From Anaerocolumna chitinilytica (GTDB lineage: Bacteria; Bacillota; Clostridia; Lachnospirales; Lachnospiraceae): DNA of 64,000 bases. The notes beneath the pieces were generated by a model. The model did no database searches. It saw only the letters and a program-made list of their open reading frames with translations, and had not been told where the DNA came from. Both the position numbers and the translations under genes were made by a program. The stretch is taken from contig NZ_AP023368.1 in the NCBI RefSeq assembly GCF_014218355.1, positions 3,290,001 to 3,354,000 on the forward strand. Reading direction: 5' to 3'. Positions 53,312 to 56,059 of this stretch are shown here, in pieces. Numbering within the stretch: position 1 is the first letter of the stretch; every line of letters starts with the position of its first letter.

Positions 53312-54628
53312 TTAGGGCACTAACCGATTCATATCTCTGGGAAACAGCGCTGCTTCCCTGACATTATTCTTACCCAACAGGCTCATAGTGAATCTCTCCA
53401 CTCCCATTCCTAGTCCTCCATGGGGAGCAATCCCATACTTATGAAGCATTAAATAACTTTCAAATGCCTCAGGGTTCATGCCTCTTGCCACCATCTTTTC
53501 GACCTGTGCATGATAATCATGAATACGCTGTCCCCCTGTAGTAACCTCTATTCCTCGAAACAACAAGTCAAAGCTTTTGGTTACTTCCTTATTATTTTCC
53601 TCTTCCATAGCATAGAAAGGTCTCTTAGCCGTTGGATAATGAGTAACAAAGATAAATTCACTGCCGGTTTTCTCTTTTACTAACTGGCATAGCAGTCGTT
53701 CTTCTTCCGGCTCAAAATCATAGAAGTCTGCTATTTCTCTGTTAAACTCCTTTTGTATCCATTCTTTTGCTTCTTGAAAGGATATGGCAGGAATTTCTTC
53801 TACAACAGGAAGTGATACCGAAAGCAGTTCCAGTTCCTCTTTGTAATTATCCTTAAGATACGCCATTGAATACTGAAGCATTGCAGTTTCTGTCTCCATA
53901 ATGTCATAGAAACTGTTGATATAGCCCATTTCCAGATCCAATCCCATATATTCATTGAGGTGCCTTGCTGTATCATGCTTTTCCGCTCGGTAAACAGCAC
54001 CGACTTCAAATACTCTGTCATAAACACCTACCATCATTTGTTTAAAGGCTTGAGGACTTTGGGCAAGATAGGCTTCTTTTCCGAAATACTCAAGGCTGAA
54101 CATGTTCGCACCTCCTTCCACTCCTGCAAATACAATCTTTGGTGTGTGTATCTCTGTGAATTTCTGATTCCTTAGAAATTCTCTTGCTCCATTTATAAAT
54201 CCTTCCTGTATTTTAAATACCGCTCTTTCTTTATGATTTCTAAGAGTAACAGGACGGTAATCCAGTTTTGTTTCAAGTGATGCTTTTACCTCTTTGTTAT
54301 TGATAACTACCGGCGATTCAGCTGCCGGCTGGGAGAGAATCTCTACCTCAAGTATATCAATCTCAAAGCCTGCACGAGCCCTTTCTTCTTTTCGTACCAT
54401 TCCCTTAATTCGTACACAGGCATTTTCACAAAGTTCTTCATAAGAACATTTACTGGTATCCAAAACACATTGAATAAGATTTCTTGCCGTTCTGATTATT
54501 ACAAATGAAAAACCGCTCATTTTTCTTATCTTATAAACCGCTCCGGTAAATTCCGCAATACTGCCTAATTTTTCTCTTAATTCTTTTTCTTCTATTACTT
54601 CTATCGTTTTACCAACAATATTATTCAT
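53312..54628 (-). CDS. aspS: Aspartyl-tRNA synthetase, archaeal-type (probably non-discriminating), 438 aa
   Basis: Class IIb aminoacyl-tRNA synthetase charging Asp onto tRNA. An N-terminal OB anticodon-binding domain lies at residues about 1-120. Motif 2 is FEVGAVYRAEKHDTARHLNE and motif 3 GGLGMGVERFTMSLLG. The bacterial GAD insertion is absent and the length is near 440, so this is the AspRS2/archaeal-genre form, often able to charge tRNA-Asn as well for later amidation by GatCAB. Start at ATG 54628 with GGAGG 5 nt upstream; the ATG at 54640 is part of that ribosome site. Expression appears to be controlled by the attenuator leader at 54851-55098. Confidence 0.93.
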   Translation of the reverse strand: MNNIVGKTIEVIEEKELREKLGSIAEFTGAVYKIRKMSGFSFVIIRTARNLIQCVLDTSKCSYEELCENACVRIKGMVRKEERARAGFEIDILEVEILSQPAAESPVVINNKEVKASLETKLDYRPVTLRNHKERAVFKIQEGFINGAREFLRNQKFTEIHTPKIVFAGVEGGANMFSLEYFGKEAYLAQSPQAFKQMMVGVYDRVFEVGAVYRAEKHDTARHLNEYMGLDLEMGYINSFYDIMETETAMLQYSMAYLKDNYKEELELLSVSLPVVEEIPAISFQEAKEWIQKEFNREIADFYDFEPEEERLLCQLVKEKTGSEFIFVTHYPTAKRPFYAMEEENNKEVTKSFDLLFRGIEVTTGGQRIHDYHAQVEKMVARGMNPEAFESYLMLHKYGIAPHGGLGMGVERFTMSLLGKNNVREAALFPRDMNRLVP

Positions 54629-54661
54629 ACAAACCTCCATAGGATGCGCTTTAGCGTATAT

Positions 54662-54832
54662 TCAGATTAAAAGTGATAATTGTTCTTTCATTTTCACACT
54701 AATGTTTTCAAATTTACAGCCCTGCCATTTAAACGGCTGCAGGATAGGACTGAGAATTTCCCAGTCGTTTATTAATACAATTCTCAATATTTCACGCGCC
54801 ATATCTTTTCCAGCATAATCTGTATGCTGCAT
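54662..54832 (-). CDS. Small ORF between the attenuator and aspS, 56 aa
   Basis: Reads MQHTDYAGKDMAREILRIVL and ends MKEQLSLLI. It begins with a strong site (AAGGGGGTGATAAT then ATG 54832) immediately after the leader terminator and ends 33 nt before the aspS start. No similarity recognised; it is predicted soluble, helical first half, one Cys. Position and ribosome site argue that it is translated whenever the terminator is read through. It could be a real small protein or a coupling cistron for aspS. Confidence 0.6.
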   Translation of the reverse strand: MQHTDYAGKDMAREILRIVLINDWEILSPILQPFKWQGCKFENISVKMKEQLSLLI

Positions 54833-54850
54833 ATTATCACCCCCTTAAGC

Positions 54851-54894
54851 AAAAAACCACCCGGATATTATATTAAAATACAATACCCAGGTGG
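54851..54894 (-). terminator. Attenuator terminator in the aspS leader
   Basis: On the minus strand CCACCTGGGTATTGTATT (54894-54877) pairs with the stretch 54874-54857 through Watson-Crick and three G-U pairs, then TTTTTT (54856-54851). The stem is some 16-17 bp once a minimal loop is allowed. It stands upstream of the 56-residue ORF and aspS, so it must be read through for expression. Confidence 0.85.
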
Positions 54895-54922
54895 CTTTTT
54901 GTTCTGATGATATAAGAATCCT

Positions 54923-54983
54923 GCCTCCATAGGTACAAGCCAAATAAGCGCTTATACCTATGGTTCTCCATAGCTATAAGCGC
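54923..54983 (-). promoter_or_regulatory. Mutually exclusive hairpins of the aspS attenuator
   Basis: Segment 1 GCGCTTATAGCTATGG (54983-54968) pairs with segment 2 CCATAGGTATAAGCGC (54963-54948), 15 of 16 positions, AGAA loop. Segment 2 can instead pair with segment 3 GCTTGTACCTATGG (54940-54927), 14 positions with one G-U. Segment 3 (TACCTATGGAGGC, 54935-54923) can also pair with segment 4 GCCACCTGGGTA (54895-54884), which is the 5' arm of the terminator. Segment 1 overlaps the leader-peptide stop codon. Confidence 0.8.
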
Positions 54984-55030
54984 CGCCTATCATCGTCCCT
55001 ATTCATGAAGGAAGGCTTAAAAGGATTCAT
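54974..55030 (-). CDS. aspS leader peptide with three consecutive Asp codons, 18 aa
   Basis: MNPFKPSFMNRDDDRRRL, from ATG 55030 to a TAG at 54974, preceded by GAGG at a usable distance (GAGGTAGAATT then ATG). The Asp codons GAC GAT GAT lie at 54997-54989, directly 5' of hairpin segment 1, whose sequence encodes the final residues and stop. An Asp run in a short ORF ahead of the aspartyl-tRNA synthetase gene, followed by competing hairpins and a terminator, is the layout of ribosome-mediated attenuation. The three following Arg codons (AGG CGG CGC) are rare types and could add a pause. Confidence 0.8.
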   Translation of the reverse strand: MNPFKPSFMNRDDDRRRL

Positions 55031-55069
55031 AATTCTACCTCATCTTAGTGATAATAAATTATTTTTGAT

Positions 55070-55098
55070 ATCTTACCATAAAGCATTCAATTTGTCAA
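55070..55098 (-). promoter_or_regulatory. aspS promoter
   Basis: On the minus strand TTGACA (55098-55093), 17-nt spacer, TAAGAT (55075-55070). Expected start near 55063, about 33 nt before the leader-peptide ATG. The 321-bp gap 54833-55153 is thus fully explained by promoter, leader ORF, hairpins and terminator. Confidence 0.85.
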
Positions 55099-55153
55099 AG
55101 TGAACTTTATACCGGTTTATGTGATTTTGCAAATCAGCCCGGGACCAAGTTCA

Positions 55154-56059
55154 CTAACAAACTTTTGTTTCATAAATAATTTCCTTTATGTGTCTCGCAT
55201 AAGCTCCTGCAACATTAAAACCGGTAACACTTTCCATCCCCCCAAAAAAGGCATTGGAATTCACCTCACATACAACCGGTTCCCCAGATTCTCCAAATAA
55301 CAGATCAATGCCGCAATAATCCAGTTTCAAGATGTCTGCTACTTTCTCAGAAATTTCTTTAAAAGACGGTGGTAAGTCAAACACTTCCGCCCTTCCTCCC
55401 AATTCTATATTGGACCGAAAATCCGTATCTGATATCCGCTTCATACTGCAAGCTACTTTGCCACCGATAACAATTACTCTTGCATCTTTTCCCTCACTGG
55501 AGTTTATCATTTTTTGAAACAAATGCTCTTTACATTTTACTTTTTCCATGTTTAATAATAATTCATCCCGGTTTTCTGCTCTGAACACTCCTGATCCAAG
55601 CGAACCATAGCATTCCTTTATAATACACGGATAACCAAGTCTTTGCTCAATCATTTCAATTCTCTTCATTACCTCCTGTAAAGACGCATCTTTATTATAG
55701 CAAAGTAATCCCGGAATAGTATCGGGCATTTTAATCCCTTTATCTGATAGTGCTATATGTGTCATCATCTTATCATCACAGGTAAGAATCGCTTCATGTG
55801 AGTTAAACAGCCGCTTACCTGTTTTTTCAAGAAGTGCTGAAGTATATTTATCCTTATCCAAATATATTATAAAATCATAATCCTTAAGAAAGGAAGTACT
55901 GCTGCCGGAGATTATCATTGCTGTTTCAATGCTGCAGGGTTTTATATCACACTCTATACCCAGCACTTTTAATTCATCCTTTAAACGAACCGGTTGATGC
56001 ATGGCAGACTTTAGTTTAGAAAATGCATTTACTAAAATCAGTCCTTTTTTATAATTCAT
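55154..56059 (-). CDS. RimK-like ATP-grasp ligase, 301 aa
   Basis: ATP-grasp carboxylate-amine ligase of the RimK family. Glycine-rich loop KECYGSLGSGVFRAENRDEL, phosphate and Mg sites in VIVIGGKVACSMKRI, DFRSNIELGGRAE, and the terminal YCGIDLLFGESGEPVVCEVNSNAFF. The N-terminal domain (about 1-100) lacks recognised features. Such enzymes add glutamate or other amino acids to protein, cofactor or peptide ends; the substrate is not shown here. GGAG precedes ATG 56059, and the gene starts 21 nt after the ftsK stop, so it rides on the ftsK transcript and ends before the divergently placed aspS promoter region. Confidence 0.88.
   Translation of the reverse strand: MNYKKGLILVNAFSKLKSAMHQPVRLKDELKVLGIECDIKPCSIETAMIISGSSTSFLKDYDFIIYLDKDKYTSALLEKTGKRLFNSHEAILTCDDKMMTHIALSDKGIKMPDTIPGLLCYNKDASLQEVMKRIEMIEQRLGYPCIIKECYGSLGSGVFRAENRDELLLNMEKVKCKEHLFQKMINSSEGKDARVIVIGGKVACSMKRISDTDFRSNIELGGRAEVFDLPPSFKEISEKVADILKLDYCGIDLLFGESGEPVVCEVNSNAFFGGMESVTGFNVAGAYARHIKEIIYETKVC

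Follow-up and report, generated by a model that had tools for sequence, protein, structure and literature searches.

Does the short, aspartate-rich reading frame ahead of an aspartyl-tRNA synthetase gene in Anaerocolumna chitinilytica form the sensor of a ribosome-mediated attenuator? A first-pass annotation of the window, i.e., the whole 64,000-nucleotide stretch that was analysed, had proposed a promoter TTGACA-N17-TAAGAT, an 18-codon ORF containing GAC GAT GAT, and five RNA segments with a switching logic that would control aspS. All of these parts, together with the terminator, were located on the minus strand, as follows.

55070..55098, minus strand: promoter TTGACA-N17-TAAGAT with TG preceding the -10 (sequence; sequence and position conserved in relatives)
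54974..55030, minus strand: leader ORF MNPFKPSFMNRDDDRRRL, 18 codons and a stop codon, with the Shine-Dalgarno (SD) sequence GAGGTAG upstream (sequence; homologous leaders)
54989..54997, minus strand: sensor codons GAC GAT GAT, three Asp (sequence; relatives)
54995..55003, minus strand: segment 0, AATAGGGAC, the Asn-Arg-Asp1 codons, which may pair with segment 3 when the leader is not translated (minimum free energy and consensus folds; duplex energies)
54968..54984, minus strand: segment 1, which contains the leader stop codon
54948..54963, minus strand: segment 2 (pairing tests)
54920..54941, minus strand: segment 3, the 5' part of the putative antiterminator (pairing tests)
54878..54897, minus strand: segment 4, the 5' arm of the terminator and partner of segment 3 (sequence; pairing tests)
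54855..54874, minus strand: segment 5, the 3' arm of the terminator, followed by a U run (sequence)
54897-54854, minus strand: intrinsic terminator with U run
54662..54832, minus strand: ORF2, MQHTDYAGKD..., with the strong SD AAGGGGGTGAT (sequence; relatives)
53312..54640, minus strand: aspS2, non-discriminating aspartyl-tRNA synthetase (family profile matches)

The whole element, from promoter to terminator, runs on the minus strand from 55098 to about 54848 and begins with a sigma-70-type promoter. The leader ORF starts with the ATG at 55030, ends with the stop codon at 54976-54974 and reads ATG AAT CCT TTT AAG CCT TCC TTC ATG AAT AGG GAC GAT GAT AGG CGG CGC TTA TAG. The 225-nt leader region folds at -85.3 kcal/mol (z -7.92), and none of 200 shuffles folded as well. 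Taken alone, the promoter of the window was not above chance, with 5 promoter-like sites in a 3-kb scan vs. a shuffle mean of 9.6. A promoter match of at least 10/12 was found directly before the leader in 60 of the 98 distinct relatives with enough upstream DNA, compared to 0/98 for a stretch 300 nt further upstream and 4/98 for shuffled stretches. A gene for a RimK-type ATP-grasp ligase (55154-56059, minus strand) lies directly upstream of the leader, and an ATP-grasp-like coding sequence seemingly lies upstream of the leader also in L006 and L007, as read by eye.

The controlled gene encodes a non-discriminating aspartate--tRNA(Asn) ligase of the archaeal type (NF003483, 541.7 bits; TIGR00458, 386.3 bits with a cut-off of 368.4). 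An aspartyl-tRNA synthetase (AspRS) gene therefore does lie downstream, as the first-pass annotation had it, but it is an accessory aspS2 and not the ordinary aspS. Its start is probably the ATG at 54628, because the ATG at 54640 overlaps the SD. Non-discriminating AspRS also makes Asp-tRNA-Asn, and aspS2 enzymes serve tRNA-Asn as well. The genome of the window additionally contains a bacterial-type, housekeeping aspS1, an AsnRS and a second aspS2 (paralog B), which is 55% identical, has gatB about 2 kb downstream and a T-box upstream. Rfam family RF00230 was obtained in 4/4 stretches upstream of paralog B, scoring 59.2 bits in the window's genome and 71-81 bits in those of three relatives, in no case reaching the gathering score of 93; by pattern, the T-box motif string was present in 12/12 such stretches, and the specifier was read by eye as AAC (Asn). 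A bacterial-type aspS1, over the family cut-off and distinct from the leader-controlled gene, was found in 14 of the 15 leader-bearing genomes checked, the exception being the 86% complete genome G043. Judged by gene content, the leader-controlled AspRS is a spare.

To what extent is the leader a property of AspRS genes in general? It is present in L001-L015, i.e., 15 of the 30 aspS2-type loci of the first set, and a pattern search did not find it in L016-L042. A covariance search in Lachnospiraceae, proposed by the first-pass annotation, did recover the leader upstream of AspRS: a model built from these 15 leaders (R1) matched 24 of 397 genomes across the family at E <=0.01, two of them (one genus) via His leaders or a spurious match. 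Across the order, R1 matched 9 of 295 genomes, and outside the family only G062 gave a strong score. A pattern scan found at least 120 loci, mostly labelled as Lachnospiraceae, this abundance being a lower bound. Among the matches listed, the leader occurs in the genera Anaerocolumna, Lacrimispora, Kineothrix, Herbinix, Eisenbergiella, Fusicatenibacter, Murimonas, Mobilitalea and Acetatifactor; in metagenome-assembled genomes labelled Roseburia, Blautia, Sellimonas and Dorea; in further Clostridia, one Ruminococcus and one Phoenicibacter; and in three bins labelled Paenibacillaceae, whose leaders match those of Lacrimispora.

When 154 loci were scanned with the leader pattern, 152 matched (re-fetched copies included), L071 and L073 being the two that did not; L073, read individually, precedes aspS2. 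The 152 matches are followed by aspS2 in 127 cases and by aspS1 in nine (in L184 by a shortened gene); in 14 the stretch ends within 700 nt of the leader, and two, L189 and L192, have no AspRS. L192 was rejected as a chance pattern match that is not a hit of model R1, and L075 was not a leader on reading. Collapsing leaders more than 93% alike left 106, or 105 distinct leaders without L192: 91 before aspS2, five before the bacterial-type aspS1 (L184 among them), eight with too short a stretch and one before another gene. An AspRS gene is thus found downstream of 96 of the 97 distinct leaders with enough downstream DNA. The 17 new loci found by R1, which were not selected by codons, gave a similar distribution, with 14 before aspS2, two before aspS1 and one (L071) before another gene. 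The same leader stands before two distant AspRS families, which points to the amino acid as what links leader and gene. Two single loci are recorded here as well. In L189 (4240-5547), an Asp leader is followed by a gene for a zinc-type dehydrogenase and an ORF resembling methionine aminopeptidase, on a stretch without AspRS; L214 (from the 67% complete genome G020) has the terminator and ORF2, and no AspRS gene on the stretch.

The leader behaves as a translated frame in relatives. An in-frame start with a purine-rich SD is present in 103 of the 105 distinct leaders (six with TTG) and missing in two, and a stop codon is present in all 105. By the rule used, which searches in frame only, the distance from the start to the Asn/His codon is 27 nt in 58 leaders, 30 nt in 29 and another value in 16. 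The stop falls at codon 6 or 9 after the Asn/His codon in 87 leaders, which places it at the start of, or within, segment 1, and at codon 5, 11 or 13 in the other 18. Residues 2-8 of the peptide are variable. The sensor codons are not: the first and third Asp are Asp in 105/105 leaders and the second in 104 (one Glu), most of these leaders having been collected via a pattern that fixes part of the Asp-run and neighbour codons. In the 17 loci found by the model the three Asp codons are kept in 16, preceded by NK, KG or QK in L060, L063 and L074. A second model, R2, which omits the sensor codons and includes the His leaders L203 and L204, added L243, a leader ending in RRDDD before aspS2. Among 14 weak model matches read by eye, two are Asp leaders (L242 and L243) and four are His leaders (L250, L251, L252 and L257), and in seven (L244-L248, L253 and L254) no leader was seen.

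The conserved stretch extends beyond the Asp run. The residue two before it is N in 86 leaders, H in 17, K in one and Q in one, and the residue directly before it is R in 102, K in two and G in one; this conservation of the Asn and Arg codons counts against a reading based on Asp alone. Two further explanations draw on it. The first is an arrest peptide, in which the ribosome is halted by nascent LNRDDD, possibly together with a drug or other ligand, instead of by slow decoding of Asp. The very constant N/H-R-D-D-D and a start 27 or 30 nt before the Asn/His codon in 87/105 leaders would suit such a peptide, while the changes in the residues preceding DDD (NK, KG, QK, RR) and in residues 2-8 argue against it, as do the sibling leaders described below, and we regard it as improbable. 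The second holds that the leader senses asparagine, arginine or a general slowdown of translation. Asn-Arg precedes the Asp run, Arg often follows it, an Asn run occurs in L071 and aspS2 enzymes, from what is known of the family, act on tRNA-Asn as well. Against this, His replaces Asn in 17 leaders and Lys or Gly replaces Arg in three, compared to 0/105 replacements of the first or third Asp (a figure that is partly built into the collection), and the bacterial-type AspRS is also found downstream of the leaders. This explanation, too, has little probability in our view.

Leaders of the same architecture with other codon runs provide a comparison. His leaders matched by R1 precede hisG in L203 (MFSLFINHHHHHHCSERL) and L204 (MFCIFNHHHHHGITRL) and hisS in L250 (MYNLNINIKCKHLHHHHK), L252 (MFTTLIAIQQLHHRHKQRL) and L257 (MLFTMHHHHTFSDCNL); the His leader of L251 (MFTINVNPHHPHSLRL), likewise an R1 match, is followed ~650 nt further on by an ORF whose matches to binding proteins of amino-acid transporters fall below the cut-off. 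In L257 (1841-1960, minus strand), away from the studied leader, there is a sub-threshold match to the RF00514 His_leader (35.8 bits; gathering score 49). Six weak matches to R1 or R2 read by eye included three Arg leaders (E 0.003-0.014), namely L259 (MTSLVLSNLRRRDRRKLL) before argS, L258 (MNHCLNNQIRRRYRYLLV) before an argS fragment and L260 (MLSLTLSQLRRRDRRKHL) before a BlaI-like gene, while L261-L263 were not leaders. A model built from these three Arg leaders had matches at E <=0.01 in 8 of the 240 family genomes searched. Its loci before argS are L264 (the same place as L259), L265, L267, L268 and L269, the last of which (MNNMTINSLRRRYRRKFL, G000:C1:5233718-5233836) has a similar layout and belongs to the genome of the window itself, where one of two argS genes follows it. 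L266 (Arg) precedes an ORF without gene assignment, L270, with Glu replacing several Arg, precedes an ORF without family match, and in L271 no leader was seen. As for AspRS, a second full-length argS exists besides the leader-controlled one in G000, G002, G147, G178 and G020.

Altogether, five His and five Arg siblings stand before intact hisS, hisG or argS, so that codon and gene were swapped together. An arrest peptide does not predict that such siblings mostly precede genes for the same amino acid, and the drug-type version was rejected on the variable flanking residues and these codon-swapped siblings before matching genes. The exception is L071 (G099:C176:12573-12687), which keeps the leader architecture (R1 67.6 bits; R2 E 2.1e-11) and encodes MYYSVKCFHLNGNNN, with Asn codons (LNGNNN before the stop) in place of Asp. 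The gene that follows has no link to Asn and matches MTA/SAH nucleosidase (NF004079, 185 bits with a cut-off of 169); with codons and gene mismatched, L071 is a counter-example. Other mismatches are L189 (Asp, dehydrogenase), L260 (Arg, BlaI-like), L266 (Arg) and L270 (Glu/Arg). The first-pass annotation had counted homologous leaders that keep the hairpins and not the Asp codons as evidence against an Asp attenuator. Such leaders do occur among the siblings, but their target gene has mostly changed to match, with L071 as the misfit.

A riboswitch, a T-box or an operator bound by AspRS is most improbable: the high nucleotide conservation of AGGGACGANGAT and a weak resemblance of the 2:3 hairpin and terminator to the RF04312 trpB motif would favour it, whereas that conservation is what codons that also pair with segment 3 would give, the leader start and stop are present in relatives, and no Rfam family reached its gathering score in the window or in 16 leader stretches (some overlapping). 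A T-box or known riboswitch match, which the first-pass annotation had also counted against its proposal, was rejected on these searches; RF00230 was absent among the 11 Rfam matches up to E 10 in 54600-55200, and the His_leader RF00514 had no match in the window. Membership in the trpB motif was rejected as well (37.3 bits, gathering score 59; found in 0/120 family genomes), as was a pure RNA aptamer.

The pairings 1:2, 2:3 and 3:4 co-vary, a check that the first-pass annotation had proposed. On an alignment fitted to helix 1:2, this helix is paired in 95.4% of cells with both-sided changes at 9/15 pairs, and 0/500 shuffles scored as high on any measure. In a duplex test, each segment was paired with its partner from the own locus or with partners from other loci. 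The own-locus partner was favoured for 1:2 (-23.7 vs. -20.5 kcal/mol, n=94), 2:3 (-15.5 vs. -13.1 kcal/mol, n=94) and 3:4 (-13.99 vs. -12.02 kcal/mol, n=86; 0/2000 permutations), with the reservation that sequence relatedness inflates permutation tests and was not fully removed in the pairing tests. The control pairings 2:4 and codons 2-9 with the farther flank showed no own-locus advantage in the same test, and segment 1 against the reversed arm 4 gave a slight difference in the opposite sense (p 0.034). An outer helix between codons 2-9 and the flank after segment 3 is weakly supported, the cognate partner being better in 60% of 94 (p 0.0055). The sign of the 3:4 result was the same with two terminator finders, the first giving 80/97 loci with some distant hairpins and the stricter one 98/106 (L192 included). 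By eye, the terminator arm still matches segment 3 in L010 and L009, where the spacing between segment 3 and the terminator is 292 or 512 nt. As predicted from these pairings, antiterminator and terminator are mutually exclusive, with co-variation.

The sensor codons themselves can take part in this folding. When the window is folded without a ribosome, and likewise in the consensus fold, part of AATAGGGAC and segment 3 form a helix that encloses hairpin 1:2. Within the Asp set the 0:3 pairing is -10.0 at the own locus vs. -9.2 at other loci, own being better in 66%; in the window itself it is weak (-9.4 kcal/mol). Compared by class, the sensor-codon stretch on average pairs better with segment 3 of its own class than with those of the two others: -13.8 vs. 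-9.9 and -11.4 for Asp, -12.5 vs. -7.7 and -11.3 for His, and -14.8 vs. -11.3 and -11.2 for Arg. In a balanced set of 18, with hand-picked His and Arg stretches, the own-locus pairing beat 10,000 permutations. Exceptions are L252 and, slightly, L251, which pair better with Arg-type segments, and L258, which pairs better with His-type segments. Given this own-class and own-locus preference, the codons may have a second role besides sensing, as an RNA strand that withholds segment 3 from segment 4.

Can the position of a ribosome select between these folds? We folded transcripts ending after segment 4 from 97 loci (L192 left out) with an assumed ribosome footprint of 30 nt, with which a ribosome on the first Asp codon ends directly before segment 1. 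The mean number of expected 3:4 pairs was 8.8 with Asp1 in the A site, 7.4 with Asp2, 6.0 with Asp3, 3.7 at the stop codon and 4.7 with no ribosome; when only the RNA ahead of the ribosome was folded, the means were 10.5, 8.8, 7.2 and 4.5 for Asp1, Asp2, Asp3 and stop. At least 5 expected 3:4 base pairs were obtained in 94% of the 97 loci with Asp1 in the A site vs. 31% at the stop. The Asp1 and stop states differed by at least 2 bp in the predicted sense in 78 loci and in the opposite sense in one (L105), and the untranslated state was also lower in 3:4 than the Asp1 state (64 vs. 0). The window folds as 1:2 plus 3:4 with the ribosome on Asp1 and as 2:3 with the ribosome at the stop, its gain in 3:4 being small (3.8 vs. 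2.0 expected bp) if RNA behind the ribosome may pair across. In this model the antiterminating stall would fall at Asp1-Asp2, which speaks against sensing of Asn or Arg. In silico, ribosome position thus selects the fold, and the switching logic of the first-pass annotation is reproduced: the Asp1 ribosome favours the antiterminator and the stop ribosome does not.

Based on the leader ORF, the Asp codons conserved amid drifting neighbours, the co-variation, the footprint folding and the AspRS downstream, we consider it highly likely that the five-segment element attenuates transcription of the accessory AspRS gene by a ribosome-mediated mechanism, with charged tRNA-Asp as the signal that is sensed, as first proposed. 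Stalling, termination and read-through in the cell are what we infer from this. When Asp-tRNA is short, the leader ribosome would stall with an early Asp codon in the A site, covering the sensor codons and leaving segment 1 free. Segment 0, being covered, could then not hold segment 3; 1:2 would form, segment 3 would pair with segment 4, segment 5 would be left without a partner and transcription would read through into aspS2. With plentiful Asp-tRNA, the ribosome would reach the stop codon and block 1:2, so that 2:3 would form and 4:5 would terminate. Without translation, 1:2 would form and the sensor codons would hold segment 3, and therefore 4:5 would also terminate. The gene would presumably serve as an inducible spare for Asp starvation or inhibition of the housekeeping AspRS.

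The mechanistic kind is already known. In the his operon attenuator of E. coli and Salmonella, with segments A-F, a ribosome on the sensor codons leads to B:C and D:E and read-through, and a ribosome at the stop leads to C:D and E:F and termination. The logic proposed here is the same, 1:2 plus 3:4 corresponding to B:C plus D:E, and 2:3 plus 4:5 to C:D plus E:F. The element of the window differs in its Asp codons, its AspRS gene, the lack of a match in the window to RF00514, the Rfam family of the his attenuator, and in sensor codons that can pair with segment 3 when untranslated.

Within Firmicutes, and as far as the accessible parts of these sources go, His leader peptides have been described before hisS*/hisZ in bacilli (Naville and Gautheret 2010, PMC2965389) and before his operons of the Bacillus cereus group, Eubacteriales (Lutispora, Peptostreptococcaceae) and Erysipelotrichales (PMC9413887). 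These are likewise leader-peptide attenuators replacing T-boxes, once on a duplicated hisS, but are described for His only, unlike the Asp leader. The cysS uORFC-8-2 motif of Rhodobacterales (PMC8632094) shares the control of a synthetase by leader codons for its own amino acid and differs in belonging to Alphaproteobacteria and Cys. The transamidation operon of Clostridium acetobutylicum is controlled by a two-codon (Asn/Glu) T-box (Saad et al. 2013, as cited in PMC4052509), and here paralog B likewise has a T-box and gatB; that T-box binds tRNA and has no leader peptide, unlike the Asp leader. In the part available of a Shewanella survey, the aspS 5' UTR is classed simply as the leader of a tRNA synthetase (PMC2659441). 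In the accessible portions of the open-access literature, we found neither an Asp-codon attenuator of AspRS nor a codon-swapped synthetase set. The view that such an element is unexpected and undescribed therefore stands for Asp and AspRS within that literature, but not for the his-type logic or for leader peptides in Firmicutes, where His leaders are known. Asp specificity, the codon-swapped set and the double use of the sensor codons appear to be new.

Between the terminator and aspS2, ORF2 may add a second level. Its SD resembles a long complement of the anti-SD at the 16S end, and a co-varying 6-bp hairpin lies right after the start codon (54829-54811, minus strand; 309/324 cells paired vs. 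a shuffle maximum of 287). In relatives, conservation is limited to about the first 10 codons. A pattern search for the motif M-x-H-x-D-[D/Y]-[V/A]-x-x-D recovered it at 61 of the 105 distinct leaders and in 0/9 aspS1 loci. ORF2 is perhaps a second Asp-sensitive or mRNA-stabilising step.

The Asp leader is very probably a conserved, ribosome-mediated attenuator for a spare AspRS and one of a codon-swapped set. A wider proposal, which we put forward tentatively, is that in Lachnospiraceae and related Clostridia spare synthetase genes carry codon-swappable attenuators (Asp, His and Arg so far) in place of T-boxes; that the sensor codons also sequester the antiterminator, so that a change of specificity forces a change in segment 3; and that a second Asp-rich leader ORF at aspS2 (MGHxDDVxMD, its start codon followed by a hairpin) supports the attenuator through an effect on translation or on mRNA stability. 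The pairing between sensor codons and antiterminator would be a design rule for specificity change in such leaders, and the natural Asp/His/Arg codon-swap series makes attenuator specificity directly testable. Our findings suggest that a large group of Clostridia may regulate synthetase genes by ribosome stalling, not by T-boxes alone, and that spare synthetases are perhaps kept silent until charging fails, e.g., under an AspRS inhibitor.
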